A stretch of DNA of 64,000 nucleotides, from contig NZ_CP108393.1 in NCBI RefSeq assembly GCF_035961655.1, forward strand, positions 1,054,001-1,118,000, given 5' to 3'. Shown here in pieces: positions 10,895 through 49,346 of this stretch. A program made the position numbers and the translations under genes. The notes under the pieces were generated by a model. That model saw only the letters and a program-made list of their open reading frames with translations. It searched no databases and was not told the DNA's origin. Within the stretch, counting starts at the first letter, position 1; each line of letters starts with the position of its first letter. The stretch comes from Streptomyces sp. NBC_01317 (lineage in GTDB: Bacteria > Actinomycetota > Actinomycetes > Streptomycetales > Streptomycetaceae).

Positions 10895-10896
10895 GA

Positions 10897-12054: not shown

Positions 12055-13026
12055 TCAGGCGGCCGAGGTCATTCTCTTCGTACGGGCCGCCCTGATGCCC
12101 TCCCGGCGGTCGGTGAACGAGCTCGCCTTCTTGTCCAGCAGGGCGACGAACGACGCGAGTTCCTCCCGCGCCGCCTCCCCCCGCGCACCGAAGCCATCCC
12201 GCTCGAAGACCCGCAGCTTGCGCAGGATGGGCATGATGACGCTGTCGTGGTGCAGACGCAGGTCGTAGATGCCGGCGATGGCGATCTCCGCGGACTTGCG
12301 GCCGAAGTCCTTGATGGTCGAGCCGGGCATCTCGAAGCCGACGACCACATCTCGGACCACCTGCATGGCGGTGTCGGGCGCCAGCTCGAACGCGGCCTCG
12401 ACCAGGTTGCGGTAGAAGACCATGTGGAGGTTCTCGTCCGCGGCGATCCGCGCGAGCAGCGCCTCACAGCGAGGGTCGTTGGTAGCCGTCCCCGTGTTGC
12501 GGTGCGAGATACGGGTGGCGAGCTCCTGGAACGAGGCGTACGCGATCGCGTGCAGCGCGCTGTAGCCGTCGGGGCGGTCGTAGCCGCCCGACATGTGCTC
12601 CATCCGGGCTCTTTCCAGGGCCCTGGGGTCGACGGCGCGAGTGGCCAAAAGGTAGTCGCGCAGCGCGATTCCGTGTCTGGCCTCCTCAGCGGTCCAGCGG
12701 TCGACCCAGGTTCCCCACGCGCCGTCCCTGCCGAACTCGGCCACCGCCCTGTGATAGCCGGGCAGGTTGTCCTCCGTCAGCAGGTTGACGACAAGGGACG
12801 TCCGCGCGACCTCGGGCAGCGTGGCCTCGTCCTCGGTCCACGCCTCCCCGCCGAGTGGACCGTCGAAGGTACGGCCCTCGCTCCACGGGATGTACTCGTG
12901 GGGGAACCACTCCTTGGCGACTCCCAGGTGACGGTGGAGGTTGGTCTCCACCACCGGTTGCAGTTCCGCCAGCAAGGAGTGTTCTGCGCTCGCGACCGAG
13001 CGATCGGATCGATCGATGGGGGGCAT
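12055..13026 (-). CDS. Acyl-ACP desaturase-type diiron protein
   Basis: A 323-aa member of the soluble stearoyl-ACP desaturase/DesA family, which inserts a double bond or otherwise oxidises an ACP-bound acyl chain using O2 and a reduced ferredoxin. Iron ligands are all visible: Glu85 (NLLTEDN), Glu115 and His118 (TAEEARHG), Glu168 (SFQELATR), Glu198 and His201 (ADENLHM). The motif WTAEEARHGIALRDYLLATR is close to mycobacterial DesA proteins. It is the last gene of the leftward half of the cluster. It could create the alkene of a fatty-chain product or serve membrane lipid synthesis. The start is ATG 13026 with a weak GAGAG upstream. Confidence 0.85.
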   Translation of the reverse strand: MPPIDRSDRSVASAEHSLLAELQPVVETNLHRHLGVAKEWFPHEYIPWSEGRTFDGPLGGEAWTEDEATLPEVARTSLVVNLLTEDNLPGYHRAVAEFGRDGAWGTWVDRWTAEEARHGIALRDYLLATRAVDPRALERARMEHMSGGYDRPDGYSALHAIAYASFQELATRISHRNTGTATNDPRCEALLARIAADENLHMVFYRNLVEAAFELAPDTAMQVVRDVVVGFEMPGSTIKDFGRKSAEIAIAGIYDLRLHHDSVIMPILRKLRVFERDGFGARGEAAREELASFVALLDKKASSFTDRREGIRAARTKRMTSAA

Positions 13027-13083
13027 CGTGCTCTCTCTTCACATCGTGGCGGGAGCCGTGGGCTACCACCGCAGATCTGACGG

Positions 13084-14523
13084 TTACGTGTTCTGTACCG
13101 ACCGGGACCGGATCGCGGGCGCCGCGACGGCGGCTGCTGCGGCCCCGATGGCACAGGCCAGGAACACCTGCAGATAGCCCTCGTCGTCGAGGACGCTGTG
13201 GCGTTCGAGAATGGCCGCGAGGGCGGCGATGCCGAGGGCACCACCGATCTGACGGGTAGTCATGAGCAGGCCGGTGCCGGAGGCGAAGCGCTCCGGCGGC
13301 AGCGAGGCCGTGGCCGCGTTGGAGATCGCGGTCAGCGCCGCGCCGATGCCGATGCCGGCGAGGATGCCGATGGGCAGCCAGACAGCCGCGTACTGCTTCT
13401 CGGTGTCGAGCAGCAGGTACATGGCGGCGCAGGAGGCACCGAAGAGCGCGGAGCCGACGGCGACCGCGGCCCACTGGGAGGCCGGACCGACCCGGCGCCC
13501 CACGATCGTGGCCCCGACGGCGGCGGCGAAGGCACCCGGCGTCACCGCGAGGCCCGCCTTCAGTTCGGAGTAGCCCCATACCGCGTTGAGGAACAGCAGG
13601 GAGCTGAGGAGGTAGGAGTACATGGCGGCGCCGAAGAGCAGCGAGGTGACGTTGGTGGCCGCGAAGGCCCGGCTGCGCCACAGGTCCAGTTCGAGGGCGG
13701 GCGCGGAGTGCCGCTTGGAGAGCAGCAGGGCCACCGCGAAGAGCACGGCACCGCCGATCAGCAGGCCGAGCACGCGTCCACTGCCCCAGCCCCACTCCGT
13801 CCCCTGGGTCACTCCGAAGACGACACCGCCGACGCCGAGCGCCAGGATGAGGGTGCCGACGGGGTCGGGCAGCTTGCGCCCGCTCGGCGCGTCAGCGGTG
13901 AGCTTGGCCGCACCGGCCACGATGGCGAGCCCGATCGGCAGGTTGATCAGGAAGACGCTGCGCCAGCTCCAGACGTCCACCAGCAGGCCGCCGAGGCTGG
14001 GGCCCACGGCGGCGGCCATGCTGCCGACGGCTCCCCAGATGCCGATGGCCACCTGGCGGCGGGCCGCGGGCGTGTGCTGGAGAACCAGTCCGAGCGCCGA
14101 CGGAATGAGCCCCGCGGCTCCCACGCCCTGCAGCGCGCGGGAGGCGATCAGCATGGGCACACCCGTGGCGACCCCGCTCAGCAGCGAGGCGACGATGAAC
14201 ACGCCCGTGGACCACAGGAACAGCTTCTTGCGGCCGATGACGTCGGCGACCCGGCCGGCCACGGCGAGCAGCGCCGCGAAGACGACGGTGTACGACGTGA
14301 CGACCCAGGTCAGCTGGGACAGCGAGGCATCGGGGAAGTCGGCGCGGAGGTCGGAGAAGGCGATGTTCACGACCGTGGTGTCGAGCACGGCCAGGAACGT
14401 CGCGCCCGACGCGACGAGGAGGGCGAGCTTGGCCGCGGCGGACGGCTGCTCCCGCCCGGTCTCCTTCTGCTGTTCCGTCCCGGCCGGGACGGGGCCCGTC
14501 GGGTGGGCTGAGGCGGTCGTCAT
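13084..14523 (-). CDS. MFS multidrug exporter, DHA2/EmrB-QacA type
   Basis: A 479-aa integral membrane proton-drug antiporter with about 14 membrane segments. The DHA2 helix-1 motif is clear (LAVLDTTVVNIAFSDLRADF), followed by the motif-A loop (VAGRVADVIGRKKLFL) and motif C (GPSLGGLLVDVWSWR). ATG 14523 is supported by AAGGGA 9 nt upstream. A TetR-type operator lies about 70 bp upstream (14592-14612), the same operator found at other promoters of this cluster. It is the obvious export/self-protection gene for the cluster product. Confidence 0.92.
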   Translation of the reverse strand: MTTASAHPTGPVPAGTEQQKETGREQPSAAAKLALLVASGATFLAVLDTTVVNIAFSDLRADFPDASLSQLTWVVTSYTVVFAALLAVAGRVADVIGRKKLFLWSTGVFIVASLLSGVATGVPMLIASRALQGVGAAGLIPSALGLVLQHTPAARRQVAIGIWGAVGSMAAAVGPSLGGLLVDVWSWRSVFLINLPIGLAIVAGAAKLTADAPSGRKLPDPVGTLILALGVGGVVFGVTQGTEWGWGSGRVLGLLIGGAVLFAVALLLSKRHSAPALELDLWRSRAFAATNVTSLLFGAAMYSYLLSSLLFLNAVWGYSELKAGLAVTPGAFAAAVGATIVGRRVGPASQWAAVAVGSALFGASCAAMYLLLDTEKQYAAVWLPIGILAGIGIGAALTAISNAATASLPPERFASGTGLLMTTRQIGGALGIAALAAILERHSVLDDEGYLQVFLACAIGAAAAAVAAPAIRSRSVQNT

Positions 14524-14591
14524 GTGAGGTGGTCCCTTCATCTGAGGCGCCGCCGTCGCCCGGTCCGCAGCGGCAGTACCCACTCCACAAA

Positions 14592-14612
14592 CTAAACGAC
14601 CGTACGTGCATT
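14592..14612. promoter_or_regulatory. Cluster TetR operator upstream of the exporter
   Basis: CTAAACGACCGTACGTGCAT is a version of the repeated operator ACGACCGTGCG seen at 28.1, 31.3, 45.4, 47.9 and 48.9 kb. The core ACGACCGTACGT is at 14596-14607. The rest of the 14524-14885 gap has no gene; GC-rich complementary blocks near 14821-14850 may form a terminator for the lyase gene. Confidence 0.6.
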
Positions 14613-14885
14613 TAGAAGAGGAACCCGCCGATTCCAGCGGGACGGGAACCTTCCCGCCAGCGACGGCCGCCGAGCCCGTACACGTTCCCGGACCAGGACC
14701 TTTCATCGCTTCTGTAATGAAGCGTCCGTACCGGTGCGCCGGCGTTCGCGGCATCGCACGTCCGAAGGGCCCGGATCGGCTCGAACGGGCGGTGTCCCGC
14801 GGTGCCGGAAGTCACACCGCGGCCCGGCCCCCCGGCCCCGGTTCGGGTCGGGCCCGCCGGAGAATGGCCGAAATCACCTCCCCCG

Positions 14886-16319
14886 TCAGCCTGGCCCCAC
14901 CAGGCTCGAGCCGGCCTGCCGCCCGGCGCCCAGCACCCGTCCTGTCAGTTCCTCCGCCGCGCCCGTGTACGCGGCCGGGTCGAGCAGGGCCTCCAGGTCC
15001 CCGGCACCGAAACGTCCGGCGAGTTCGGGCTGGGCCGCCAGGACCGTGGAGAGCGGGCAGGCGGTGGTCGCGCTCTCGGCGGAGGCACGGCTCACCACGT
15101 CCTTGGCCGCGGCCTTGCCGAGGGCCGAGGAGAGGACGGCCGCGAGCCGCTCGGAGACGATCAGGCCGCCGGTGAGTTCCAGGTTGGCCCGCATGCGCTC
15201 GGGAGACACCACCAGACCGGACACCAGCTCGCACGCGGTGTGCGCGGCCCCGCCGGCCAGCCGCAGGCATTCGCGCAGCGGCTGCCACTCGGCGTGCCAG
15301 GCACCCGCCGAGCGCTCGTCCTCGGAGAGCATCGTGTGGCTCAGCACACTCGCGTACGCGGGAACCTGGAGGGCGGCCGAACGGATCAGCGTGGCCAGCG
15401 CCGGGTTGCGCTTCTGCGGCATCGCCGAGGAGACACCCCTCCCGGCCGCGGCCGGCTCGGCCACTTCGCCGGTCTCCGTGCGGGCCAGCGACTGCACGTC
15501 CACGGCGATCTTCCCCAGCACCCCGGTGGCCAGGGCGAGTTCGGCCGCCAGTACGGCGATCGGTGCCCGGTGGCTGTGCCAGGGGAGGAGCGGGGCGCAC
15601 AGGCCCGTCTCCTCGGCGAACCGCTCCGTCAGCCGGCGGGCGTACGCGTCGGTCGGCGGTTCCCCCCGCTCCTCCCGGTGCAGCCGCTCGTACTCGAAGT
15701 ACCCCGCCAGCGTGCCCGCCGCGCCGCCGAGTTGGACGACGAGTCCCTCGGCACGCAGCCGCCGCAGCCGGTCCGCCGCCCCGTTCACCGCCACCAGCCA
15801 GCCGGCGGCCTTGAGACCGAACGTCGTCGGTACGGCGTGCAGTGCGAGAGTCCGCCCCGCCATGAGCGTCCCGGTGTGCTCGCCGGCCAACGTGTGCAGC
15901 GAGCCCGCCAAGTCGTCCAGGTCGCCCAGCAGGAGATCGAGGGTGTGGGCCGCCACGAGCATCAGAGCGGTGTCGAAGATGTCCTGGCTCGTGGAACCCC
16001 TGTGCACGTAGTCCGCCGCGTCCGGGTCCTTGGCCGCCACCAGTGAGGTGAACGCCTGCACCACCGCCACCACCGGGTTGGCCGCTCCCCTGCTGAGCAC
16101 GGCCAGCGCCCGCAGGTCCAGATCCTCGGCACGGGCCAGCCCGGTGATCGTCCGGGCCGCGTCCTCGGGCACGTTGCCCAGCCCCGCCTGGGCGCGCACC
16201 AGCGCCGCCTCGGCGTCGAGCATCGCCTGGAGCCAGGCCAGGTCGGACGTGGCCGTCTCGGCCGGGGTACCGGCCCGTACCGGACTCAGCAGCCCGGCGT
16301 CGAGCGTCATACCGTTCAT
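14886..16319 (-). CDS. creD: CreD-like nitrosuccinate lyase (aspartase/fumarase superfamily)
   Basis: A 477-aa lyase of the adenylosuccinate/argininosuccinate/carboxymuconate-cycloisomerase superfamily. Signature blocks are present: GAANPVVAVVQAFTSLVA, then VHRGSTSQDIFDTALMLV (catalytic region), and the mobile signature loop SSAMPQKRNPAL. Alone it could be annotated PcaB. However, it is translationally coupled (ATGA, 16316-16319) to a CreE-like flavoprotein, and that pair is the aspartate-nitrosuccinate pathway. In that pathway the lyase splits nitrosuccinate into fumarate and nitrous acid. ATG 16319 is preferred over ATG 16310 because of the coupling and GGAGAG upstream. Probable role: supplying nitrite for N-N bond formation or diazotisation. 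Confidence 0.78.
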   Translation of the reverse strand: MNGMTLDAGLLSPVRAGTPAETATSDLAWLQAMLDAEAALVRAQAGLGNVPEDAARTITGLARAEDLDLRALAVLSRGAANPVVAVVQAFTSLVAAKDPDAADYVHRGSTSQDIFDTALMLVAAHTLDLLLGDLDDLAGSLHTLAGEHTGTLMAGRTLALHAVPTTFGLKAAGWLVAVNGAADRLRRLRAEGLVVQLGGAAGTLAGYFEYERLHREERGEPPTDAYARRLTERFAEETGLCAPLLPWHSHRAPIAVLAAELALATGVLGKIAVDVQSLARTETGEVAEPAAAGRGVSSAMPQKRNPALATLIRSAALQVPAYASVLSHTMLSEDERSAGAWHAEWQPLRECLRLAGGAAHTACELVSGLVVSPERMRANLELTGGLIVSERLAAVLSSALGKAAAKDVVSRASAESATTACPLSTVLAAQPELAGRFGAGDLEALLDPAAYTGAAEELTGRVLGAGRQAGSSLVGPG

Positions 16320-18274
16320 CCCGTCAGCTCTCCGATCATCTTGTCGTCCGGCCGCCGGTCCCTCGCGCCCGTCGAGAGCACCGCACGCGCTATGGCGTCC
16401 GAGTCCTGCAGCGTCACGGAGTTGACCCCGGGACGTATCCCGGCCGCCGTCGCCCAGTGCACGGCCTCCGTGGGCACGCCGAAGGCGAAGCGACGCGGGT
16501 GCGTCCGGCCCTCGGCGTCGATCAGCCGGAACGGCTCGTCGGTGACGGCGAGGCCGCCCGACTCGTACGGGGTTCCCTCGGGGTCGGCTATGCGGTGCGG
16601 GCGGCACTGGCCGGACATCAGGAGGTGGCGCAGCAGGGGGTCGGCGGTGGTGCGCAGGTCGATCTCCGGCAGCCTGGCCTCGATCAGCGCGGTGGCCGTG
16701 AGCCGGGAGCCCGGCACCGCGGAGGACTCGACCGCGAAGACGCCTGCCGCCTCGTCCGCCGTGGCCCGAGTGTCGGGGCCGATCACGTGCAGCACTCCCG
16801 CGGCGATCAGCGCGATCGCCTCCTCGATCCGGCTGGCGGGCGGGCCGATGGACAGGAACGCGTTCAGGGGCGTGTACCAGGCGTCGAGGTGCTGCCGGTG
16901 CGAGCTGCCGGTGAGGCCGCCGTGGTCGACGATCATCCGCAGTTCGTTGCGCAGGTCGCGCAGGACGTCGAGCGCCGCCTTGACGGGACCGTCCACGTTC
17001 CCGTTGCGCGCCGCCTCCAGGTCCGCGCGCAGATGGGCGGTCAGCCAGTCACGGAAGTCCTCCGGCGAGGCGAAGTCGCGTCCCTTGTACGGCCGGGCGA
17101 TCCGGCTCCAGTCCCAGCGCTCGGCCGGGGCGACGCCGAACTCGTCCAGGAGCTCCTGTTCCCGGGGGCTGCCCGGCGGCACGGCGAGGTAGGCGTCTCG
17201 CAGCCGGCGCGCGTCGCCCGGGCGGTCGGCGGCGGTGAGGAGCGCGGTGTAGTAGACGGTCCTGACCTCCTTGGAGACCAGCGGCCACACGGTCTCGCGG
17301 AAGTCGATCCCGCCCCGTCGCCGGGCCTGCTCGCGCAGCTCCGCGATCACTTCGACGGTCAGCACGGCCGGTTCGTGCCGCCCGTGCGCCCCCTTCTGGT
17401 TCTCACCCCGGGCGTGGAAGGGCAGACCCCGGCGGGAACCCGCGACCATCCGGGGTTCGAGGCCGGACGGCAGGTACACGAGCCGTCCGTCCTGCCGTTC
17501 GAACCGGCCGCCGCGACCCAGGGTGAGGAGGGCCATGTAGTCGAAGAAGTTGAGGCCGAGCCCGATCAGCGCGACCGTCTCGTCGGGCGCCACCTTCGTC
17601 AGGTCCACGTCGGCCGGGTTGGCGGGCAGGACGTAACCGAGCCCGTGGGCCGCGGCGAAGTCGCCGAACTCGTCCTGGCGCCGGGAGCTCCGCACCGGCA
17701 GATGGCCCTGGGCGAGGACGACGACGTCGAGGCCCTCCAGAACCGTGGCGTCGTCGAGCCGCACGCGCTGGGTGCCGTCCTCCTCGTCGTCGAGCTCGAC
17801 CGCGCGGGCGCGGTGCACGACCGTGGTCAGGCCGGCCGGCGCCGTCTCCGTGACCCGCTGGAACACCCACTCCAGGTAGTTCCCGTAGAAGGAGCGGGTG
17901 GGGTAGGAGTCGGGCCCGAGCGCGCGTGCCTCGCTCAGAACCCGTTCTTCGTACTCCCGCCCGTCCACAGGACCGATGAGGGTGAGGAAGCGCGCCCATT
18001 CGTACAGGCTCGGTCCGGGGACGAGCGCGCCGTCGATGAGCACGCTCTCGTCGGTGAACATCGTGACCTGTGAGGCCACCGTGTTCATCAGCAGGTGCGC
18101 GGACTGGTCGGGGCGCCAGACCTGCCCGGCGCCCGGCGGATAGGGATCGACGACGTGGACGGTGATCGATACGCCGTCCGCGTCCGACGCAGCGTTCGCA
18201 CACAGCCGTTCGAGGACCGATAGCCCGCGGGGCCCGGCACCGATCACGCAGACGTCGAGCCGTCGGCTGGTCAT
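16316..18274 (-). CDS. creE: CreE-like FAD-dependent monooxygenase (aspartate to nitrosuccinate)
   Basis: A 652-aa protein with an N-terminal FAD-binding Rossmann motif (VCVIGAGPRGLSVLERL, NAD_binding_9 type). A second nucleotide-binding motif is recognisable around VALIGLGLNFFDYMALL, and the C-terminal region is long and helical. The family includes CreE, which oxidises the amine of aspartate to nitro with NADPH and O2. Gene order CreE-CreD with an ATGA overlap strongly supports this reading. ATG 18274 has GGAGAGAG upstream. Other members of the fold are lysine/ornithine-type N-hydroxylases, so a different amine substrate is the main alternative. Confidence 0.78.
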   Translation of the reverse strand: MTSRRLDVCVIGAGPRGLSVLERLCANAASDADGVSITVHVVDPYPPGAGQVWRPDQSAHLLMNTVASQVTMFTDESVLIDGALVPGPSLYEWARFLTLIGPVDGREYEERVLSEARALGPDSYPTRSFYGNYLEWVFQRVTETAPAGLTTVVHRARAVELDDEEDGTQRVRLDDATVLEGLDVVVLAQGHLPVRSSRRQDEFGDFAAAHGLGYVLPANPADVDLTKVAPDETVALIGLGLNFFDYMALLTLGRGGRFERQDGRLVYLPSGLEPRMVAGSRRGLPFHARGENQKGAHGRHEPAVLTVEVIAELREQARRRGGIDFRETVWPLVSKEVRTVYYTALLTAADRPGDARRLRDAYLAVPPGSPREQELLDEFGVAPAERWDWSRIARPYKGRDFASPEDFRDWLTAHLRADLEAARNGNVDGPVKAALDVLRDLRNELRMIVDHGGLTGSSHRQHLDAWYTPLNAFLSIGPPASRIEEAIALIAAGVLHVIGPDTRATADEAAGVFAVESSAVPGSRLTATALIEARLPEIDLRTTADPLLRHLLMSGQCRPHRIADPEGTPYESGGLAVTDEPFRLIDAEGRTHPRRFAFGVPTEAVHWATAAGIRPGVNSVTLQDSDAIARAVLSTGARDRRPDDKMIGELTG

Positions 18275-36250: not shown

Positions 36251-36302
36251 GGCAGGTTCCTTCCTGAGTGGAACATCATGGGCCCGGCCGATGCCGGCCG
36301 GG

Positions 36303-39281: not shown

Positions 39282-39304
39282 CTCGGGGTCCTCGGGGTTG
39301 TCGG

Positions 39305-40734: not shown

Positions 40735-40758
40735 GGTTTCCTTCCCCCGTCTGGGCGG

Positions 40759-41805: not shown

Positions 41806-41847
41806 GTCGTGATCTCTCGCAGGCGTCGGATGGACTGGGTGGAGGTC

Positions 41848-43107
41848 TCAGAACTTCTTCGCCATGGCGGCCAGCGCCCCGTCCACCGCTTCCAGCAGCT
41901 GGATCTCCTCGTCGGGGGTGATGACGGCGGGCGGGGTGATGCGTACGACGGGGTGCGCGTTGAGCGAGTGATTGACCACCACGTGGCGGTCGACCAGCTC
42001 CAGCAGCAGTTCCCCGGCCTGGCTCGCGTCGACGAGTTCGAGGCCGATGAGCAGGCCGGCACCGCGCACCTCCAGGACCAGGTGGGGGGCCCGGTCGGCG
42101 GCTATGGCGCGCAGGCCGGCCAGCAGCCGGGCGCCCGCCCTGTCGGCCCGGTCGACCAGTTCCTCGTCGCGGATCACCTCGATGGTGGCGCGTGCCGCGG
42201 CCATCGCGATGGGCGCCCCGGAGTAGGTGGATGTGTGCAGGAAGGGATCGGCGTCGAAGGGAGCGAACACCTCCGGGGTGGCCAGCGCCGCCGCTACCGG
42301 AACCACTCCCCCGGACAGGGCCTTGCCGATCAGCAGGATGTCCGGCCGTACCTCCGCGAGATCGCAGCCCCACCAAGCGCCCAGCCGTCCCAGTCCGGTC
42401 ATCACCTCGTCGACCACCAGGAAGGCGTTGTGCTCGCGGCACAGGGCAGCCACTTCCTTGAGGTAACCGGGGGGCGGCATGATCACGCCGGCCTCGCTCT
42501 GTACCGGTTCGACCACGACGCAGGCGTCGCCGCCGCCCGCCACGAGGGCTGTGGCCAACGCCTTCGTGTCACCGAAAGGGACGTGCTGCACGTACGGCAG
42601 CAGCGGCCGGAACGGATCCTGGTAGAAGGAGTTCGCCGTCAGGGACAGGGCTCCGACGGTCTTGCCGTGATAGCCGTTCTCCATCGAGATCAGCCGGCGC
42701 TTTCCGTGGGCCCGTGCCAGTTTGATGGCCGTCTCCGTGGCCTCGGTACCGGATCCGGAGAAGTGGACCCGGTCGAGCCCGGCCGGTGCGACGGAGGTCA
42801 GCGCCTGGGCGGCGAGTCCGACGACGGGGTCGAGGAAGAGACGAGTGGAGAGGGCCTGCGTCTGCGCCTGCTGTTGTACGGCCGCGACGATGTGCGGGTG
42901 CCCGGCTCCGGTGAAGAAGACGCCGTAGCCGCCGCAGTTGAGGAATTCCTGGCCATCGGTGGTGGTGACGCGGGCGCCGGACGCGGACTGCTCGACGAGG
43001 TTGCCGAACATCGCCGCGAGTTGGCTGCGGCCTCGGCTCAGGTGCGCACGGTGAAGGGCGATCGCGTCATCGGCCGATATACCGCCGGACCGTTCGGATG
43101 TGTTCAT
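41848..43107 (-). CDS. Class III PLP aminotransferase
   Basis: A 419-aa omega-type aminotransferase. PLP motifs: SGSGTEATETAIKLAR, ENGYHGKTVGALSL, the Asp in FLVVDEVMTGLG, and the Schiff-base lysine in LLIGKALSGGVVP. It probably converts the fatty aldehyde from the neighbouring reductase to the primary amine. ATG 43107 is chosen by homology length; the nearest GGAGA is 15 nt upstream. Confidence 0.88.
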   Translation of the reverse strand: MNTSERSGGISADDAIALHRAHLSRGRSQLAAMFGNLVEQSASGARVTTTDGQEFLNCGGYGVFFTGAGHPHIVAAVQQQAQTQALSTRLFLDPVVGLAAQALTSVAPAGLDRVHFSGSGTEATETAIKLARAHGKRRLISMENGYHGKTVGALSLTANSFYQDPFRPLLPYVQHVPFGDTKALATALVAGGGDACVVVEPVQSEAGVIMPPPGYLKEVAALCREHNAFLVVDEVMTGLGRLGAWWGCDLAEVRPDILLIGKALSGGVVPVAAALATPEVFAPFDADPFLHTSTYSGAPIAMAAARATIEVIRDEELVDRADRAGARLLAGLRAIAADRAPHLVLEVRGAGLLIGLELVDASQAGELLLELVDRHVVVNHSLNAHPVVRITPPAVITPDEEIQLLEAVDGALAAMAKKF

Positions 43108-43178
43108 TCCGGTGTTCGTCTCCAGAGAGGTGGTGCATTGTTCACAGCGGCAGTTGACAACGGCGCGCGGACAAGGCT

Positions 43179-43658
43179 TCAAGCTCTCTCCGCCACCGCC
43201 CTGAGCCTGCTCAGCGTGGCGCGCATGCCTTCCCGGTTGACCTCTGTGCGGCGCTTCGCCGCGGTGCCCGTGAAGACCAGACCGAGGAGTTTGGCGACCG
43301 GGGCGCTGCGACCGGTTCGCAGGTCTTCCCAGTACTCCGTCACCAGGCAGCCGGAGTCCCGGTCCTCGAAGCGGTAGCCCCACAGTGCGACCGGCATCCC
43401 GAACGTATGAACTGTGAAGGCGAAGTCGCGTGGGCATTCGGCGCGCACGACGGTGCACGAGGTGAACCAGAACCACAGGCGCTTGCGGTTCCACCCGATG
43501 AACCGTGTTCCCGGCTCGAACCGTCGGCTGCGGGACCAGGCACCCACGCACTCCGGGCTCCACTCACCCATGCGCCGGACGTCGCTCACCGCACGGTAGA
43601 CGGACTCGGCGGAAGCCCTGACTAAGATTCCCTCCTCGACCCGCGCTGCGTGATTCAT
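43179..43658 (-). CDS. SRPBCC family protein (second)
   Basis: A 159-aa helix-grip protein with VEEGILVRASAESVYRAVSD and MGEWSPECVGAW near the start, and a Trp/Phe-rich middle (RLWFWFTSC). GGAG lies 5-8 nt upstream of ATG 43658. It is only distantly like the SRPBCC protein at 35.8 kb. Ligand unknown; it is likely a hydrophobic-chain binder or cyclase-like protein. Confidence 0.75.
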   Translation of the reverse strand: MNHAARVEEGILVRASAESVYRAVSDVRRMGEWSPECVGAWSRSRRFEPGTRFIGWNRKRLWFWFTSCTVVRAECPRDFAFTVHTFGMPVALWGYRFEDRDSGCLVTEYWEDLRTGRSAPVAKLLGLVFTGTAAKRRTEVNREGMRATLSRLRAVAERA

Positions 43659-43853
43659 CAATGCTCCAAACGCATACGGAAGATGCTGATCTGGAATTGA
43701 CTCGAAGTTCCACCGGCGTACGGCTCGGCGCCCGGGGGACAGGCCCGTCAGGAGACCCGCGGCACAGCCCGGGCCGGCTCCGCGAGAGCGGCGCAGGTCC
43801 GCACGGGGTGCGCGCGGCTTCGCCCGGCACATCCCGGGCCGGCCGGTCGCAGG

Positions 43854-44204
43854 TCAGGGAGAGTCGACACGGAGGGCCTCTTCTCCCTTGAGCATCTGCC
43901 ACTTGTCCGGTCGTCCGACCCAGTCCTCGGCGTCGGCGAGCGGCGCGACATCGGTGGTGGCCAGCGGCAACTGGAGTGCGAGCCGGGCGTTCCACTCAAG
44001 GGCCGGTTCGAGCTCGGGCGGCAGTTCGCCCTCCGGGTAGATGGCGTCGGCCGGGCACGCCTCGACGCAGTTGCCGCAGTCGATGCACTCCTCGGGATCG
44101 ATCACGAGGAACGTGCCCGCCTCGCGGAAGCAAGCGACCGGGCAGTAGGTGATGCACTCGGCGAACTTGCAGTGCACGCACTGTTCGGTGACGACGTGAG
44201 TCAC
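43854..44204 (-). CDS. Ferredoxin, 7Fe/8Fe FdxA-type
   Basis: A 116-aa electron carrier. Cysteines 9, 12, 17 and 21 (ends in YCPV) and 40, 43, 46 and 50 (CIDCGNCVEACP) form two iron-sulfur sites. The GTG start overlaps the patatin-like gene stop by GTGA, with AGGAGG upstream. It is a natural electron donor for the cluster's diiron enzymes. The preceding gap 43659-43853 shows no gene or clear hairpin. Confidence 0.92.
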   Translation of the reverse strand: MTHVVTEQCVHCKFAECITYCPVACFREAGTFLVIDPEECIDCGNCVEACPADAIYPEGELPPELEPALEWNARLALQLPLATTDVAPLADAEDWVGRPDKWQMLKGEEALRVDSP

Positions 44205-45145
44205 GCGACGCCCTCCTGATACGCGGTCGGTACCGCTGCCAACTCCGGGTGTGCGTCGACGAATCGGTGGCCGTCGGCAAGTCCGATGCCGTACGCCTTG
44301 GTGAGTCCTTCGGCGCTGGCGACGGCGTAGTCCACGCCCAGGTCCTTGAGGTCGTGGTCCGGCTTGACAACGAGGACGCGCGCCCCGTCGAGCTCGGATC
44401 CGTCGACGATCTCCTCGGAGGCGTAGAGGTCACGGAAGAGCGGGAACGGGTCGGAGCCGATCGCGATCAGCACGCCCACGTCCCGGGCGGCGACCTCACG
44501 CGCCGGACAGGAGCAGGTGTACGAGGCGTCGATGTAGGCCTCCCCGTCGACCTCGGCGGGGATCGCCCAGGCGTGCAGCATGCGTGTCGAGGCGTAGGCG
44601 ACCGCGTCGTGGTTCTCCGGCGTCAGGCGCGGCCGGCCGGTGCCGGGCTCGCCCTGTGTGGAGAACACGGCGGGGGCCAGGTTCTGCTCGACCCAACTCC
44701 GGTCCCCGGTGAAGATGTTGCGCAGCAGTTGCCTGCCGAGGGCCTTGGCACCGGGACCCTGGGTGACCTCGGCGGCGGCCTCGTCGGTGACCTTGCTGGT
44801 GGCCAGCAGGAACTCCGGGGCGCCGGGCCGGAAGAGCCCCTCGCGCAGAGTGGGACCGTACTCCATGATGCTGTCGAGGGCCACGGTGCTCATGCCCTTG
44901 TCGACGGCGCCCGCGGCGGCGCCCAGCCAGTAGTCCACACCGACCGCACGTGCCCGGCCGATCGCGGCCAGGCCACCGGACAGCCCCGACGACGAGGCCG
45001 TGCCGTACACGTCGGCGCGCAGTCCGCGCTCCTCGAAGGCGGAGAGCACGCCGTGCCCGTAGACCCCCTTGAGCATGCCGGAGGCGACCGCGATGCCGAG
45101 GCGCGCCCATGGCGCGCTCCCGCTCGTGGTTCCCGTGTCGGTCAC
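44201..45145 (-). CDS. Patatin-like phospholipase/acyl hydrolase homologue
   Basis: A 314-aa protein with a patatin-like N-terminus (LGIAVASGMLKGVYGHGVLSAF) and nucleophile elbow YGTASSSGLSGG, in which the first Gly of GxSxG is Ala. The catalytic Asp region is AYIDASYTCSCPA. The start GTG 45145 overlaps the stop of a 57-aa ORF, with GGGAG upstream. It may act on an acyl-ACP or lipid; the changed elbow leaves activity uncertain. Confidence 0.72.
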   Translation of the reverse strand: MTDTGTTSGSAPWARLGIAVASGMLKGVYGHGVLSAFEERGLRADVYGTASSSGLSGGLAAIGRARAVGVDYWLGAAAGAVDKGMSTVALDSIMEYGPTLREGLFRPGAPEFLLATSKVTDEAAAEVTQGPGAKALGRQLLRNIFTGDRSWVEQNLAPAVFSTQGEPGTGRPRLTPENHDAVAYASTRMLHAWAIPAEVDGEAYIDASYTCSCPAREVAARDVGVLIAIGSDPFPLFRDLYASEEIVDGSELDGARVLVVKPDHDLKDLGVDYAVASAEGLTKAYGIGLADGHRFVDAHPELAAVPTAYQEGVA

Positions 45146-45315
45146 GACCTGGCTCCCTTCTCGGGATGCGCCGTGCCGGCGCTCTCCGTGGGCCGACCCC
45201 TGAGGAGCTTGGCGTCTATCTCCGCGTTCAGAAAGTCCTTGAACCGCTGGTTGGGACCGGCGGGCCGATCCTCCGCCGTCTCGGGACGGAGAAGTACGTG
45301 ATACGCGAGCGTCAT
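45142..45315 (-). CDS. 57-aa small protein, first gene of the leftward operon
   Basis: ATG 45315 has a strong GGAGG 6 nt upstream, and the ORF ends with TGA overlapping the GTG of the patatin-like gene. The peptide is hydrophilic (MTLAYHVLLRPETAEDRPAG at the start; FKDFLNAEIDAKLL in the middle) and has no signal or Cys. It is directly downstream of a cluster TetR operator. I do not recognise it. A small scaffold protein, or a peptide needed for coupling translation, are possibilities. Confidence 0.65.
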   Translation of the reverse strand: MTLAYHVLLRPETAEDRPAGPNQRFKDFLNAEIDAKLLRGRPTESAGTAHPEKGARS

Positions 45316-45353
45316 GACGTCCTCCAGAAGGGAGTGCTGACATCAACACAGTA

Positions 45354-45365
45354 GCACGACCGTGC
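45354..45365. promoter_or_regulatory. Cluster TetR operator, leftward promoter
   Basis: GCACGACCGTGC, a perfect GCACG-N2-CGTGC site, stands 39 bp upstream of the 57-aa gene that heads the leftward transcript towards the ferredoxin and azoxide genes. Confidence 0.72.
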
Positions 45366-45410
45366 GTTTACTTTCTTGGTCCGACGCTGCGATCTTCCAT
45401 AAATATGAGC

Positions 45411-45422
45411 GAACGGTCGTGC
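45411..45422. promoter_or_regulatory. Cluster TetR operator, rightward promoter
   Basis: GAACGGTCGTGC, flanked by ATGAGC and TAGTAT, lies 41 bp before the rightward hydrolase-FabI operon. It is 57 bp from the preceding operator in opposite orientation, so both divergent promoters are probably repressed together. Confidence 0.68.
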
Positions 45423-45462
45423 TAGTATTTTACTTCCTCAAAACGACCTGGAGACGCTTGCC

Positions 45463-46326
45463 ATGGATCTCGTGACGTCGGCCGTCGACCCGGCCCCGAG
45501 CCCCGAAGGGCAGAAGCTGTTCGACCTCTTCCGCCGACCCCAAGGACGCTCTCGGCCACGGCCCGTGGAACGGGCCGCCATCGAGAGCGCGCGGACCGAC
45601 GAGCTGACCGTCGGCGGCACGACGGTCGTCACCTACGCCTGGGGCGACGGTGAGCGTCCGGTGCTGCTGGTGCACGGCTGGGAGTCGCGCGCGTCGCGTT
45701 ACGCCAAACTCGTCGCCCGGCTGGTCAAGGTCGGTTACAGCCCGGTGTCCTTCGACGCGGCGGGTCACGGGGAGTCCGGCGGTGACGGCACGACCCTCCT
45801 CGAATACTGCGCCGTCATCATGGAACTGCACCGCTCGCACGGAGACTTCGCGGCCGTCGTGGGCCACTCCTTCGGCGCCCTGGCCACCTTTCTGTCACTG
45901 CCGCAGGGGCTGCGCACGGAGCGGCTCGTAGCCATCAGCGCCGTACCCGACTTCGACTACCTGGTCGAATCGTTCTGCAGCAAGGCGGGAGTGGGGCCGC
46001 GGATGGAGGACGAGGTCCGCCACCGTCTGGAGCGTGAGCTCTACCCCGGTGAGGACATGTGGACACGATTCTCGGTCGTGCACCACGCCCCCCTCGTGAA
46101 CGTCCCGCTCCTCCTGATCCATGACGAGAACGACGAGGCCGTCGGCGTGGAGCAGGCGGAGCGCATCGCCGGGGTCTTCGGTGACCGCGCGCGCCTGGTC
46201 ACCACCCACAGGTTCGGACACCAGCGGATCCTCGGGTCCCCCCATGTCGTCGACGAGATCGTCCGGTTCGTCACCGGCGAGGAATCCACCGCCGCCCGCC
46301 GGCAGACAGAGGTGACAACACGATGA
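45463..46326 (+). CDS. Alpha/beta hydrolase A (paralogue of the 48-kb hydrolase)
   Basis: A 287-aa hydrolase. Nucleophile in VVGHSFGALA, strand motif PVLLVHGWESRASRYA, acid in IHDENDEAV and His in HRFGHQRILG. It is similar along its length to the protein at 47.9-48.8 kb (shared HGW-SRASR, FDYLVE-FC and GH-RILG blocks). ATG 45463 has GGAG upstream. It is coupled by ATGA to the FabI gene. It may be a type II thioesterase-like or ester hydrolase. Confidence 0.87.
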   Translation: MDLVTSAVDPAPSPEGQKLFDLFRRPQGRSRPRPVERAAIESARTDELTVGGTTVVTYAWGDGERPVLLVHGWESRASRYAKLVARLVKVGYSPVSFDAAGHGESGGDGTTLLEYCAVIMELHRSHGDFAAVVGHSFGALATFLSLPQGLRTERLVAISAVPDFDYLVESFCSKAGVGPRMEDEVRHRLERELYPGEDMWTRFSVVHHAPLVNVPLLLIHDENDEAVGVEQAERIAGVFGDRARLVTTHRFGHQRILGSPHVVDEIVRFVTGEESTAARRQTEVTTR

Positions 46327-47102
46327 GCGGTCTTCTCGCGGGCAAGCGTGTCCTGGTGACGGGCGTCCTGATGGAATCCTCGATCGCCTTCCACACCGCC
46401 CGGCTCGCCCAGGAGCAGGGCGCCGAGGTGATCCTCACCGGTTACGGCCGGATCAGCCTCGTCGAGCGCATCGCCAAGCGACTGCCGGAGCCGGCTCCTG
46501 TCATCGAGCTCGACGTCCAGAACGAGGAACACCTGGAGAGCCTCGCCGACCGCGTCCGTGAGCTGGCGGGCAAGGACGCGCGCCTCGACGGCGTCGTGCA
46601 CTCCATAGCCTTCGCCCCGCAGGACGCGCTGGGAGGCAACTTCCTGGCCACCGGCTGGGAGTCGGTGGCGACCGCCGTCGAGGTGTCCGCCTACTCCCTC
46701 AAGTCGCTCGCCATGGCGTGCCTGCCGCTCATGAAGGAGGACGGCGGGGCGATCGTGGGTCTCGACTTCGACGCGAGCACGGCCTGGCCCGGGTACGACT
46801 GGATGGGGGTGGCGAAAGCGGCGCTCGAGGCCACCTCGCGCTATGTCGCCCGTGATCTCGGGCCGCTCGGCATCCGCTGCAACCTGGTGGCCGCGGGACC
46901 GATCAAGACCATGGCGGCCCGGAACATACCGGGGTTCGAGACCTTCCGCGAGGTGTGGGAGACCCGTGCCCCCCTGGGCTGGGACCTCTCCGACCCCGAA
47001 CCGGCGGCGCGCGGCGTCGTGACCCTGTTGTCCGACTGGTTCCCCCGGACCACGGGCGAGATCGTGCATGTCGACGGTGGTGTGCACGCGATCGGTGCGT
47101 GA
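46323..47102 (+). CDS. fabI: Enoyl-ACP reductase, FabI/InhA family, with G-to-A at the drug-contact site
   Basis: A 259-aa NADH-dependent enoyl-ACP reductase. N-terminal GLLAGKRVLVTGVLMESSIA, catalytic Tyr and Lys in YDWMGVAKAALEA, and AAGPIKTMAARNIPGF are all FabI/InhA features. The segment VHSIAFAP has Ala96 where E. coli FabI has Gly93 and InhA has Gly96, the residue altered in diazaborine- and triclosan-resistant FabI. It may therefore be a drug-insensitive copy for self-protection, or a chain-building enzyme for the pathway. It is under a cluster operator and coupled to hydrolase A. Confidence 0.92.
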   Translation: MSGLLAGKRVLVTGVLMESSIAFHTARLAQEQGAEVILTGYGRISLVERIAKRLPEPAPVIELDVQNEEHLESLADRVRELAGKDARLDGVVHSIAFAPQDALGGNFLATGWESVATAVEVSAYSLKSLAMACLPLMKEDGGAIVGLDFDASTAWPGYDWMGVAKAALEATSRYVARDLGPLGIRCNLVAAGPIKTMAARNIPGFETFREVWETRAPLGWDLSDPEPAARGVVTLLSDWFPRTTGEIVHVDGGVHAIGA

Positions 47103-47115
47103 CGGAACGACGCGG

Positions 47116-47147
47116 GCGGCGGCCCGTCCGGATGACCGGGCCGCCGC
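47116..47147. terminator. Convergent hairpin between fabI and TetR 2
   Basis: GCGGCGGCCCG (47116-47126) pairs perfectly with its complement at 47137-47147, with a 10-nt loop. Confidence 0.7.
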
Positions 47148-47172
47148 TCCGGCCGTGGCCCGTGGTGGGGCG

Positions 47173-47823
47173 TCAGGCGGCGGCAGGCAACACCGACGTA
47201 TCGGTGGCCACCGCGCGCAGGCGGGACAGCACGGCCTTGTCAGCCTTGTCGTAGCACGTGAAGTCGTTGTGCAGGACGGACTCGGCGTTCGCCATCTCCA
47301 GGAACGCCACGAGTTCGAAGACGAGCTGGGGGATGTCGGCGTCCTCCGCGAGCTCGCCCACCCGCTGGGCTTCCCGCGCGACCTGCTCCATGTAGGAGAG
47401 CCAGTTGGTGCGGGCGGCGGCGACCGTGTCGTGCACCTTTCCCTCGCGGGCGTCGTACTCGGCGGTGACCGAGTAGAAGAAGCAGCCGCCGGGGAAGACG
47501 CGTTCACGGGAGTACGTGAGCCACCCCGTGCACAGCCGCCACAGCCGGCCGATGCCCGGAGGCAGATCGCGAGCGGGCTGGACCACGTGCTCCAGATACA
47601 CCGTGATCGCCGCGCGGATCGTGGCGAGCTGGAGATCCTCCTTGGACCCGAACAGCGCGAACACACCACTCTTGCTCAGGTTCAGCTCACTCGCGAGTTG
47701 CCCCATGGACAGCGCCGCGAGGCCCTCCACCGACGCGATCTCCACCGCACGGCCGAGGATCAGTTGACGGGTCTGGTTGCCGCGCGCGACCCGGCCGTCG
47801 GATTGTGTCCCTGCTACACCCAT
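47173..47823 (-). CDS. TetR-family regulator 2
   Basis: A 216-aa repressor closely related to TetR 1 at 28.2 kb: both share ASELNLSKSGVF in the helix-turn-helix and RVFPGGCFFYSVTAEYDARE in the ligand domain. ATG 47823 is chosen, with AGG 6 nt upstream; GTG 47829 is possible. An operator of the cluster type lies about 70 bp upstream, so it is probably autoregulated. The two regulators probably recognise the same DNA site, perhaps with different ligands. Confidence 0.9.
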   Translation of the reverse strand: MGVAGTQSDGRVARGNQTRQLILGRAVEIASVEGLAALSMGQLASELNLSKSGVFALFGSKEDLQLATIRAAITVYLEHVVQPARDLPPGIGRLWRLCTGWLTYSRERVFPGGCFFYSVTAEYDAREGKVHDTVAAARTNWLSYMEQVAREAQRVGELAEDADIPQLVFELVAFLEMANAESVLHNDFTCYDKADKAVLSRLRAVATDTSVLPAAA

Positions 47824-47891
47824 GTGCACCTACTCTCCGGAAGCCCGGCTTTCTCGACTCCACTGAGGTGGCAGAAATATAGCAAATGAGC

Positions 47892-47903
47892 GGACGGTCG
47901 TGC
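47892..47903. promoter_or_regulatory. Cluster TetR operator upstream of TetR 2
   Basis: GGACGGTCGTGC, flanked by ATGAGC and CCTAAT, lies directly after the stop of hydrolase B and upstream of the TetR 2 start. Confidence 0.65.
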
Positions 47904-47904
47904 C

Positions 47905-48825
47905 CTAATCGGCCAGGGAAGCGGAACCGCCCAGTCCTTCACGGTCGTGCGCATCCCTCCCCCCGGCAGGACCGGGGCCCTCGGCGACGAAGTCCAGCAC
48001 GGTGCGCACGACCTCCGCGTCGCCGAGGATACGACGGTGCCCGAGACCGTTCGTGACGACCAGCCGCGCCTGCTCACCGAAGGCCGCCGCGAGGCGACGG
48101 CCCTGTGTCACCTTGATCCGGGTGTCGTCCTCGTCGTGGATCACCAGCAGCGGTGCGCGCAGGCTCCCGGTGATGTCCGTGATCGAGTAGGGCACCTCTT
48201 CGAGAGGCATGTCGGGGAAGAGGTTCGTACGGATCTCGTCGTGCAGCCGCGCCTTGAGCCGGTCGCGCAGCTTGAGCTCGGCACAGAACTCCTCCACCAG
48301 GTAGTCGAAGTCGCAGACCCCGCTGATGGTGACGATCTTCTGCGCCTTCACCCCGTGCTTCAGCCCGTAGGACGACCCCAGCACCCCCATGGAATGGGCG
48401 ATCAGACACTCGAACGTGCCGTACTGGTCGTGCAGCGCGGAAACGATGTCCCGGTAGTCCAGGATGGTGGTGCTGCGACCGCCCGCGCCACCGTGACCCG
48501 GCGCGTCGAAGGCGACGACACTGCGGCCGCTGTCGAGCAGCCCCGGAATGAAAGCGGACAACCGGGAGGCCCGTGACTGCCAGCCGTGCACCAGCAGCAC
48601 GGGACGGCTGCCGTCACCCCAGCGGTAGGTCACCGCGCGCTTGCCGTCCCCCACGTCCACGTGGGAGACCTCGGCCTTCTCGAACAGCTCACGCTCGGAG
48701 GACCGCAGCTCGCTCCGCACGAGCGGCATGTGGAACAGGGCGAAAGTCCCCTTGCCCGCCAGACGCCCCGAGATCAGGGCGGCGGCGTTGAGGACGGCGC
48801 TCGCGACTGCCTCAACTGGTTTCAT
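47905..48825 (-). CDS. Alpha/beta hydrolase B
   Basis: A 306-aa hydrolase, paralogue of hydrolase A. First-strand motif RPVLLVHGWQSRASRLS, nucleophile elbow LIAHSMGVLG (Ala instead of the first Gly), acid in IHDEDDTRI and His in NGLGHRRILG. ATG 48825 has a GAGGAG 10 nt upstream. It is divergent from the 48.9-kb gene, and a variant cluster operator sits between them. Confidence 0.86.
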   Translation of the reverse strand: MKPVEAVASAVLNAAALISGRLAGKGTFALFHMPLVRSELRSSERELFEKAEVSHVDVGDGKRAVTYRWGDGSRPVLLVHGWQSRASRLSAFIPGLLDSGRSVVAFDAPGHGGAGGRSTTILDYRDIVSALHDQYGTFECLIAHSMGVLGSSYGLKHGVKAQKIVTISGVCDFDYLVEEFCAELKLRDRLKARLHDEIRTNLFPDMPLEEVPYSITDITGSLRAPLLVIHDEDDTRIKVTQGRRLAAAFGEQARLVVTNGLGHRRILGDAEVVRTVLDFVAEGPGPAGGRDAHDREGLGGSASLAD

Positions 48826-48866
48826 CTCTCGGGCTCCTCGGTAAGGCATCGGGATCCGCTATATTA

Positions 48867-48882
48867 GCACGATCGACCGTGC
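48867..48882. promoter_or_regulatory. Variant cluster TetR operator with expanded spacer
   Basis: GCACGATCGACCGTGC keeps both half-sites (GCACG and CGTGC) but has a 6-bp rather than 2-bp spacer. The flank TATTAGCACGA matches the other sites. It lies between divergent hydrolase B and the 142-aa gene. Confidence 0.5.
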
Positions 48883-48917
48883 ACTTTTGTGACGATTCCT
48901 ATCGACGAGGAGATTCC

Positions 48918-49346
48918 ATGCCGGCCACCATCTGGTTCGCCCCGTGGAAGTCCGGCCCTGCGGAGCACACCGGCGAGCCGGGCGGTGCGGCCGTCGTGAG
49001 CGTCACGGACTTCGCGCCGCACCGTCCGTGGACCTCGGTCGGCATCAACATCGCCGGCGCCGCCCTGCGGCACACCTGGGGCGACGTCGAGGGCGCGGTC
49101 GGCCTCTGGCTGTGGAGCGTCCCCGGCCTGTTGCGCTCCCGGTCGGGATCGGTCTCCGTATGGCGCGACGAGCGGCACCTGAGGGACTTCGTGGCACGAC
49201 ACGACCACGTACGGATCATGAACACCTACCGGAACCGCGGCGACCTGCGCTCGGCGACCTGGCAGACGGAGCACTTCGACAAGGACGCGACCCAGGAGAC
49301 GGCGCGCTCCCTCATCGAGGAGTGGCGCGCACAGCCGGTCCGATAA
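48918..49346 (+). CDS. Conserved hypothetical protein (monooxygenase-like/DUF3291-like)
   Basis: A 142-aa cytoplasmic protein, with GAGGAG 6 nt before ATG 48918. It contains aromatic and charged blocks (WFAPWKSGPAEH, GSVSVWRDERHLRDFVARHD, RSATWQTEHFDKDA) reminiscent of dimeric alpha-beta barrel proteins related to spheroidene monooxygenase or DUF3291. No catalytic residues can be assigned. It is the rightmost gene with a cluster operator, so it is probably part of the pathway or its detoxification. Confidence 0.65.
   Translation: MPATIWFAPWKSGPAEHTGEPGGAAVVSVTDFAPHRPWTSVGINIAGAALRHTWGDVEGAVGLWLWSVPGLLRSRSGSVSVWRDERHLRDFVARHDHVRIMNTYRNRGDLRSATWQTEHFDKDATQETARSLIEEWRAQPVR

Follow-up and report, generated by a model that had tools for sequence, protein, structure and literature searches.

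The hydroxyphenylglycine (Hpg) cassette of glycopeptide-type gene clusters comprises Pdh, HmaS, Hmo, and HpgT. In clusters for azoxy compounds, VlmA is recognized with the Pfam model PF09924, a VlmR flavin reductase is highly conserved nearby, and dehydrogenase and transaminase roles have been proposed for Ady2 and Ady4 (PMC9379638). For VlmO, residues D51, H82, H110, and D114 have been reported as essential (PMC11705231). Here, we analyzed a 64,000-nucleotide stretch of Streptomyces sp. NBC_01317 (assembly GCF_035961655.1, contig NZ_CP108393.1, positions 1,054,001–1,118,000 of the forward strand), referred to below as the window; the source genome is a single contig of 8.07 Mb. Between 12.05 and 49.35 kb of the window, where 35 genes were placed, an azoxy cassette lies within a nitrite–Hpg cluster. 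We read this region as a composite of two pathways, in which a conserved nitrite–Hpg cluster took in a self-contained azoxy cassette, whatever the control of the two (probability about 0.83), because the host cluster exists without the cassette and the cassette exists whole without detectable host genes. Most likely, two products are made.

The original prediction for this DNA had set limits of 12055–49346 and had named a CreD/CreE pair, Hpg-type genes, carrier-bound acyl genes, and a VlmH/VlmB/VlmA block. These limits agree with those of conserved-cluster homology (12,051–49,340; blastn against S. parvulus and WAC 04229), all of the named gene sets were recovered at 12.05–49.35 kb, and the gene identities are right at the family level in Pfam, NCBIfam, and PDB searches. 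The claim that nonribosomal peptide synthetases (NRPS) and modular polyketide synthases (PKS) are absent is likewise borne out, as Pfam detected none of their domains in 40 candidate open reading frames (ORFs, a few of them spurious) between about 12 and 56.5 kb. Genes were called with a simple GC-frame script, and starts were corrected by hand. Additional to the prediction are a VlmO-like protein, a thioester reductase, a class III aminotransferase, an AvaA6-like ligase, and two SRPBCC proteins.

The nitrite–Hpg cluster occurs without the cassette

The host cluster occupies two parts of the window and contains the following genes.

12055–13026, minus strand: acyl-ACP (acyl carrier protein) desaturase-like protein (des; FA_desaturase_2, Pfam E 1.6e-66); left end of the conserved nitrite–Hpg cluster, S. 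parvulus blastn homology from 12,051
13084–14754, minus strand: MFS transporter (Pfam)
14886–16319, minus strand: CreD, nitrosuccinate lyase (NCBIfam NF052556, 691 bits, cut-off 650; PDB CreD 5xny, E 2.6e-146)
16316–18274, minus strand: CreE-like aspartate N-hydroxylase, adjoining creD (PDB 8cp2, E 1.5e-214, 717 bits, an entry named "FAD-binding protein" that we take to be an aspartate N-hydroxylase; NAD_binding_9, Pfam)
18366–19271, minus strand: Pdh, prephenate dehydrogenase (Pfam)
19256–20173, minus strand: PhyH-type Fe/2-oxoglutarate oxygenase (Pfam E 1.6e-23)
20248–21318, minus strand: HmaS (hydroxymandelate synthase) or a relative in the HPPD family (top PDB match 2r5v, E 2.9e-97; curated 4-HPPD model TIGR01263 exceeded, 388 bits, cut-off 277)
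21315–22598, minus strand: FabF-like ketosynthase (Pfam, NCBIfam)
22595–24244, minus strand: ANL ligase, with the AvaA6 diazotase model NF058622 as its closest match, without being a member (485 bits, below the cut-off of 975; PDB 8ztz, E 4e-112)
24377–24640, minus strand: acyl carrier protein 1 (from sequence; NCBIfam carrier matches below cut-off)
25268–26866, minus strand: second ANL ligase, putative loader of carrier 1 (Pfam)
26955–28097, minus strand: Hmo, hydroxymandelate oxidase of the FMN_dh family (E 1.5e-125)
28212–28892, plus strand: TetR-family regulator 1 (Pfam)
28906–29856, plus strand: alpha/beta hydrolase (Abhydrolase_3, Pfam)
29860–31200, plus strand: HpgT-like class I/II aminotransferase (Pfam), anchor of the 80-locus scan
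31328–31930, plus strand: MDMPI_N-domain protein (mdmpi; Pfam)
31961–32254, plus strand: putative acyl carrier protein 2 (from sequence; no Pfam match)
32288–33265, plus strand: putative ferritin-like diiron enzyme (no Pfam match itself; some homologues PF02915, one PF03405; predicted structure uninformative, mean pLDDT 45, from six close sequences)
34048–35610, plus strand: fatty-acyl-AMP ligase (FAAL), the gene that closes the left part of the conserved cluster; WAC 04229 homology ends at 35,582
43854–44204, minus strand: ferredoxin (fdx; Pfam), where the right part of the conserved cluster begins; S. parvulus homology resumes at 43,874
44201–45145, minus strand: patatin-like protein (pat; 94% homologue so named, no Pfam match)
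45463–46326, plus strand: alpha/beta hydrolase (Pfam)
46323–47102, plus strand: short-chain dehydrogenase (SDR; Pfam)
47173–47829, minus strand: TetR-family regulator 2 (Pfam)
47905–48849, minus strand: alpha/beta hydrolase, the last (Pfam)
48879–49346, plus strand: conserved 155-amino acid protein, right end of the conserved cluster; WAC 04229 homology ends at 49,340

An HpgT-anchored scan with one genome per species returned 138 relatives, and the best 80 loci were kept with up to 10 kb on each side. The AvaA6-like ligase (at least 45% identity) and the ketosynthase (at least 55%) accompany hpgT in 41 of these loci, and the second carrier, the ferritin-like enzyme, and the FAAL are additionally found in six of the 80. 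At E ≤ 1e-8, no vlm gene, thioester reductase, or cassette SRPBCC gene was present in any of the 80 loci, nor was a vlm gene present in any of 15 fetched flanks. Aminotransferase matches of 31–32% occur in L063, L064, and flank L110, 32% being the best value among the 80 loci and 15 flanks.

Left flanks were fetched for eight of the HpgT loci (L101–L106, L108, and L112). In six of them (L101–L105 and L112), creD and creE follow phyH and pdh, which upholds the predicted linkage of nitrite and Hpg genes; L106 has creE without creD, and L108 (S. buecherae) has neither. In two of the eight, L101 (Streptomyces sp. WAC 04229) and L102 (S. parvulus JCM 4068), creD is followed without interruption by the genes for MFS, des, fdx, pat, hydrolase, SDR, TetR 2, and the last hydrolase. 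L108 shows the order MFS, des, hydrolase, SDR, TetR, hydrolase, without fdx and pat, and in the remaining five flanks the MFS-to-hydrolase part was not seen within the fetched stretch.

Blastn aligned WAC 04229 and S. parvulus with 12,051–35,582 and 43,874–49,340 of the window, in several pieces with 78–85% identity. In both genomes the matches to des and fdx are only 97–98 bp apart, so that nothing lies between them. The window departs from this order: its des-to-FAAL block runs in the opposite orientation with respect to fdx-pat, and the azoxy block is found where the two meet. The cassette has apparently been transferred into a rearranged nitrite–Hpg cluster (12,055–35,610 and 43,854–49,346). 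The genes for the ferredoxin, patatin, SDR, and second TetR were considered as azoxy genes and rejected, because they belong to the host cluster in L101 and L102. Past the FAAL gene, the five closest relatives (L003, L004, L005, L012, and L054) share only two weak protein matches with one another (34 and 43%), and the FAAL gene therefore looks like a true cluster border. Host-cluster genes follow a different order again in L028 (Streptacidiphilus), where vlm genes are likewise missing. In the window, the ferritin-like and patatin-like proteins are 98 and 94% identical, respectively, to their counterparts in Streptomyces cinereospinus.

The azoxy cassette recurs as one unit

The nine genes between FAAL and fdx form the cassette, and all nine reading frames are intact.

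35725–43699, unstranded: azoxy cassette, nine genes (matched by blastn over 7,979 bp in a single piece in genome G155, 91.05%; 86% in both G380 and G740)
35771–36250, minus strand: SRPBCC protein 1 (Pfam; TTG start chosen by G155 homology)
36303–37433, minus strand: VlmH-like amine N-hydroxylase (Acyl-CoA_dh_M, E 3.2e-9, weak; 94% in G155)
37420–38334, minus strand: alpha/beta hydrolase (Pfam)
38331–39281, minus strand: VlmB-like diiron hydrazine/azo oxygenase (PDB 6d9f, "Putative VlmB homolog", E 4.7e-101, query 4–316)
39305–40282, minus strand: VlmA-like aminoacyl-tRNA-dependent transferase (PF09924, E 4.2e-53)
40279–40734, minus strand: VlmO-like membrane N–N synthase (D51, H82, H110, D114 present; no Pfam match)
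40759–41805, minus strand: thioester reductase (NAD_binding_4; TIGR01746, 104 bits, below the cut-off of 213)
41848–43107, minus strand: class III aminotransferase (Aminotran_3, E 7.9e-88; start chosen by hand)
43179–43658, minus strand: SRPBCC protein 2 (Pfam), first gene of the cassette operon

VlmA and VlmH homologues are encoded together here, VlmH being assigned by its acyl-CoA-dehydrogenase fold, a family-level match. The vlmO-vlmA-vlmH trio is adjacent in six of 15 VlmA loci of other genomes. Public databases often label VlmA-family proteins "bifunctional lysylphosphatidylglycerol flippase/synthetase MprF," and azoxy clusters may be hidden under this name.

VlmA homologues (E ≤ 1e-30) are encoded in 61 of 295 Streptomyces genomes, our own included, and among these only the VlmA of G155 (92%) exceeds 58% identity. 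Widening the search to 392 genomes of the genus added G380 (86%), and with E ≤ 1e-120 three of the 392, again with our own, are retained. A family-wide draw of 307 genomes yielded G740, which belongs to another genus (86%). In all three genomes, the segment from window position 35,725/35,766 to 43,680/43,699 is matched in one piece of 7.96–8.08 kb (91.05% in G155, 86.4% in G380, 86.2% in G740). All nine cassette genes are present in each, with 80–94% protein identity, as are all four VlmO residues.

In G155, G380, and G740, a search of 60 kb each detected none of the window's nitrite or Hpg genes. The surroundings consist of AMP-ligase, ketosynthase, FabA-like, LuxR, ThiF/nitroreductase-like, and MFS genes in G155; of deoxysugar, P450, glycosyltransferase fragment, and SARP/LuxR regulator genes in G380; and of RHS, 2-oxoglutarate oxygenase, and IMP dehydrogenase genes in G740. 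When the three copies are compared pairwise, the shared sequence has similar end points in each pair; G155 and G380 have up to ∼0.4 kb more in common. More distant VlmA homologues in G249, G064, and G320 (54–57%, tblastn) lie in a different gene order, and no nitrite or Hpg matches were found within ∼19 kb on each side of them.

It is the unrelated flanks and the patchy occurrence that argue for transfer. An argument from identity was dropped, as the rpoB coding stretch of G155 alone is 91.4% identical and the cassette 91.05% (the rpoB locus with flanks, 88.3%). A plasmid origin was rejected (VlmA homologues in 13 plasmid records all fall below 60% identity), as was transfer by an insertion sequence (IS), since no IS was seen at the cassette ends and one IS5-like element lies left of the cluster.

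One hybrid pathway or two

The original prediction favored a single hybrid pathway. On such a reading, the cassette would have been captured because its azoxy-alkyl product is joined to the Hpg/nitrite product or shares its acyl chain, and the outcome would be a lipid that carries both an azoxy group and a hydroxyphenyl unit. The nested position of the cassette fits this view, as do its shared strand with pat-fdx, which it follows, and the operator-like word upstream of them. The FAAL, carrier, and desaturase of the host could feed the thioester reductase, and azodyrecin, too, has been proposed to use a desaturase (PMC9379638). However, each part stands alone elsewhere, and the two do not co-occur beyond chance. 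In a first sample of 15 genomes chosen for HpgT, a VlmA match (E ≤ 1e-10) was found in 10 and seemed enriched. Across the genus, the AvaA6-like ligase (E ≤ 1e-130) is present in 11 of 295 Streptomyces genomes, including our own; leaving that one out, VlmA is found in 3/10 genomes with the ligase versus 57/284 without it (Fisher p 0.33), and in the three with both (G225, G230, and G307) the genes lie on different contigs. A functional link through genome-wide co-occurrence was therefore rejected.

Some observations do weigh against two separate pathways. The cassette lies inside the host cluster, not beside it, and no broken gene was seen at either junction, so that selection for the arrangement is possible. 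The cassette itself encodes neither a FAAL nor a carrier, for which it could rely on the host cluster. In addition, Streptomyces sp. NPDC088124 encodes homologues of the ferritin-like protein (80%, P0015) and of VlmA (81%, P0116), each listed with a 177,372-bp contig; the two markers probably share one contig, and this strain is perhaps a second case of linkage, which would count in favor of a hybrid pathway. No patatin-like gene of NPDC088124 was among the best 120 of 168 matches listed, and overlapping draws of 295, 392, 346, 295, and 307 genomes gave no further genome with such a VlmA. In the VlmA tree, which was built without the G380 row, the window sequence falls into a clade (99/98 support) with G155, S. 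capitiformicae (the species of G380), two Kitasatospora, and one further sequence, and NPDC088124 lies outside. Any linkage in NPDC088124 is thus likely a separate capture, and in G155 and S. capitiformicae the cassette stands alone.

We rejected the hybrid pathway as the leading reading on the grounds of synteny, since the nitrite–Hpg cluster occurs without the azoxy block and the azoxy block occurs whole without detectable nitrite or Hpg genes, and we now consider it improbable. The original prediction had itself named synteny that reveals two independent, adjoining clusters as grounds against its reading. What stands of the original interpretation are the gene identities, the limits, and the nitrite–Hpg link; the fusion with azoxy chemistry into one N–N pathway is not supported. 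Its alternative of two co-regulated products fits better, the shared control being putative.

An ancient single cluster that has since split in other species would fit the nesting inside conserved borders and the possible linkage in NPDC088124. We regard this as very improbable, given that S. parvulus and WAC 04229 have a compact, cassette-free host order and that the three cassette copies have nearly identical ends in unrelated flanks, a pattern hard to obtain by loss from one ancestor.

Control of the cassette

The original prediction called the region operator-bounded, and a repeated operator-like word is real: ANCGNACGGTCGTGCTA with up to two mismatches occurs at four sites in the window, where 0.14 are expected.

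31273–31289, plus strand: putative TetR operator before the MDMPI_N gene (31328–31930); core at the same place in L003, L005, and L006
45352–45368, minus strand: putative TetR operator before pat-fdx; exact core not found in L101 and L102
45408–45424, plus strand: putative TetR operator before the gene at 45463; core near the homologous gene in L108
47889–47905, plus strand: putative TetR operator with two mismatches, beside TetR 2

Two of the sites (45352 and 45408) thus lie in the divergent region between pat and the hydrolase gene. The exact core ACGGTCGTGC is found in six of 15 related loci (before mdmpi in L003, L005, and L006; also in L015, L028, and L108). Operator-like words are present in both parts of the host cluster and absent from the cassette, and the 60 kb of G155 contain a single operator match, ∼31 kb away from the cassette there. 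The two TetR genes (28212–28892 and 47173–47829) are paralogues, TetR 2 of the window matching the TetR 1 position of relatives with 66–71% protein identity; both regulators may therefore bind the same operator.

The cassette follows pat-fdx with every gene on the minus strand, and the fdx stop is 195 bp from the first cassette start. No terminator-like or sigma-70-like sites were found at 35.5–45.6 kb (chance expectation 2.4 and 0.4), and the fdx–cassette gap folds no better than shuffled sequences (z −0.12). The sequence in common with G155 and G380 starts only 23–42 bp above the first cassette gene, which leaves little room for a promoter within the shared unit. Judged from this layout, read-through from the pat promoter into the cassette is plausible, and shared control of cassette and host cluster has about even odds. 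Counting against shared control, the exact core is absent from nine of the 15 related loci (L004, L012, L054, and L101–L106). Of these, L101 and L102 hold the pat promoter without the core, and the pat site is therefore not demonstrably conserved. Moreover, the terminator scan seeks T-runs, which are often missing in GC-rich genomes.

Within the composite reading, the two gene sets might also be passive neighbors: the cassette would have landed with the inversion and would be silent or use its own promoter, with no regulatory or chemical link to the host. The unrelated places in which the cassette is found, once next to an IMP dehydrogenase gene, are consistent with this, as are the early end of the sequence shared with G155 and G380, the 195-bp gap, and the missing pat operator core in L101 and L102. 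On the other side are the common direction with pat-fdx, the lack of a terminator-like site in the scan, and the nine intact frames. We hold this variant as a tentative one, with a substantial minority share of the probability.

Proposed chemistry

In the composite reading, the cassette would work alone, each step being assigned by homology to the valanimycin and azodyrecin pathways. The thioester reductase would convert a fatty-acyl thioester to the aldehyde, and the class III aminotransferase would turn the aldehyde into an alkylamine, which the VlmH-like enzyme would hydroxylate to the hydroxylamine. The VlmA-like enzyme would then form an ester from the hydroxylamine and the amino acid of an aminoacyl-tRNA, the VlmO-like enzyme would rearrange the aminoacyl ester to a hydrazine, and the VlmB-like enzyme would oxidize the hydrazine to the azoxy group.

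In the host cluster, CreE and CreD would produce nitrite from aspartate, and the Hpg genes would lead from prephenate to Hpg. The HmaS/HPPD, Hmo, HpgT, and Pdh families are all present together at the Pfam family level; the names HmaS, Hmo, and HpgT follow from family-level matches and gene context, as no curated model names Hmo or HpgT. At the position where HPPD 1t47 has Phe, the putative HmaS has Ile, as does the 2r5v chain. We take 2r5v, named PCZA361.1, to be HmaS and this position to separate HmaS from HPPD. By its top PDB match and this one residue, HmaS is favored over HPPD for 20248–21318, although the curated 4-HPPD model is also exceeded.

The second ligase may load carrier 1, the ketosynthase may perform a condensation, and the AvaA6-like ligase probably nitrosates the amine of an Hpg-derived, carrier-bound unit, with the FAAL/carrier/diiron/desaturase set presumably supplying an acyl chain. 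From an alpha-amino keto or thioester unit, a diazo compound could arise; alternatively, the unit could be deaminated, as in the ava pathway (PMC10777205). Because its score is far below the curated cut-off, the AvaA6-like ligase is a candidate for N-nitrosation.

A more elaborate scenario, which we think unlikely, is a plug-in azoxy cassette captured repeatedly by nitrite–Hpg clusters (in the window strain and perhaps in NPDC088124, from different cassette lineages). Here it would be wired behind the operator-controlled pat-fdx promoter and fed acyl chains by the FAAL and carrier, and it would yield one molecule or a synergistic pair with two N–N groups from unrelated chemistries.

Further observations on the host cluster and its relatives

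Just left of the cluster, window positions 10497–11776 hold an IS element with a DDE_Tnp_1 transposase and 22-nucleotide inverted ends that are 86% complementary, presumably IS5-like. It is the sole full-length match in the genome, where a partial match (67%) and an end fragment of 62 bp (G000:C1:941009-941070) also occur, and it may have helped the inversion in the cluster. A paralogue of the cluster desaturase gene (68% nucleotide identity) is located ∼155 kb away in the same genome (G000:C1:1221402-1222256).

The PhyH oxygenase gene accompanies hpgT without the ligase–ketosynthase pair in 19 of the 80 loci (L008–L011, L040, L044, L046, L051, L053, L064, L066–L068, L070, L071, L074–L076, and L079), and the enzyme probably acts on a compound of the Hpg pathway. 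L008 has ATP-grasp amino-acid ligases in place of the pair. A second, divergent ketosynthase (35–43%), possibly a chain-length-factor partner, is encoded in the Hpg/ligase/ketosynthase loci L016, L018, L020, L025, L032, L049, and L065 (Kitasatospora, Streptomyces, and Actinokineospora). L006 (S. buecherae) and L014 (S. philanthi) share a stretch at ∼15.3–21.3 kb with 95–97% identical proteins, including a tryptophan-halogenase-like gene ∼4 kb past hpgT-mdmpi.

Comparison with known systems

In our searches of the open-licence literature, we found neither a product of the host cluster nor azoxy genes joined with nitrite and Hpg genes. With the cremeomycin aspartate-nitrosuccinate (ANS) pathway, the host cluster has CreE and CreD in common, its CreD scoring above the curated cut-off. 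The clusters for avenalumic acid and p-coumaric acid (ava, cma) share with it the CreE/CreD pair, an ATP-dependent diazotase-like ligase, a ketosynthase, and carriers (PMC10777205). In contrast to ava and cma, it has Hpg-type genes instead of 3-amino-4-hydroxybenzoic acid (3,4-AHBA) genes, none of which was among the ORFs scanned, and a ligase far below the AvaA6 cut-off. Its Pdh and its HmaS-, Hmo-, and HpgT-like proteins resemble the Hpg cassette of glycopeptide-type clusters, which differ in that here no NRPS was found and a PhyH oxygenase travels along. With nitrite, Hpg-type genes, a diazotase-like ligase, a ketosynthase, and no NRPS found, the host cluster is of interest in itself.

Like the aliphatic azoxy clusters (valanimycin vlm, azodyrecin ady/azd, KA57-A, and elaiomycin), the cassette combines VlmH, VlmA, VlmO, and VlmB homologues; its likeness to the vlm, ady, and ka genes was compared directly through PDB 6d9f and the VlmO residues. 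If a reductase and a pyridoxal phosphate-dependent transaminase convert an acyl chain to the alkylamine, this would parallel the proposal for Ady2 and Ady4 (PMC9379638). The cassette differs from known azoxy clusters in its compactness, its nine genes including those for two SRPBCC proteins and one alpha/beta hydrolase, and in recurring in unrelated neighborhoods. Neither a VlmR-like flavin reductase nor a SerRS was found in the ORF scan at 12–56.5 kb. Its occurrence in four genomes and four neighborhoods with nearly the same ends suggests that a complete route from acyl thioester to azoxy compound travels as one 8-kb unit. If so, the cassette would be a natural minimal azoxy kit, and its nesting in the window would represent a recent merger of two N–N chemistries.

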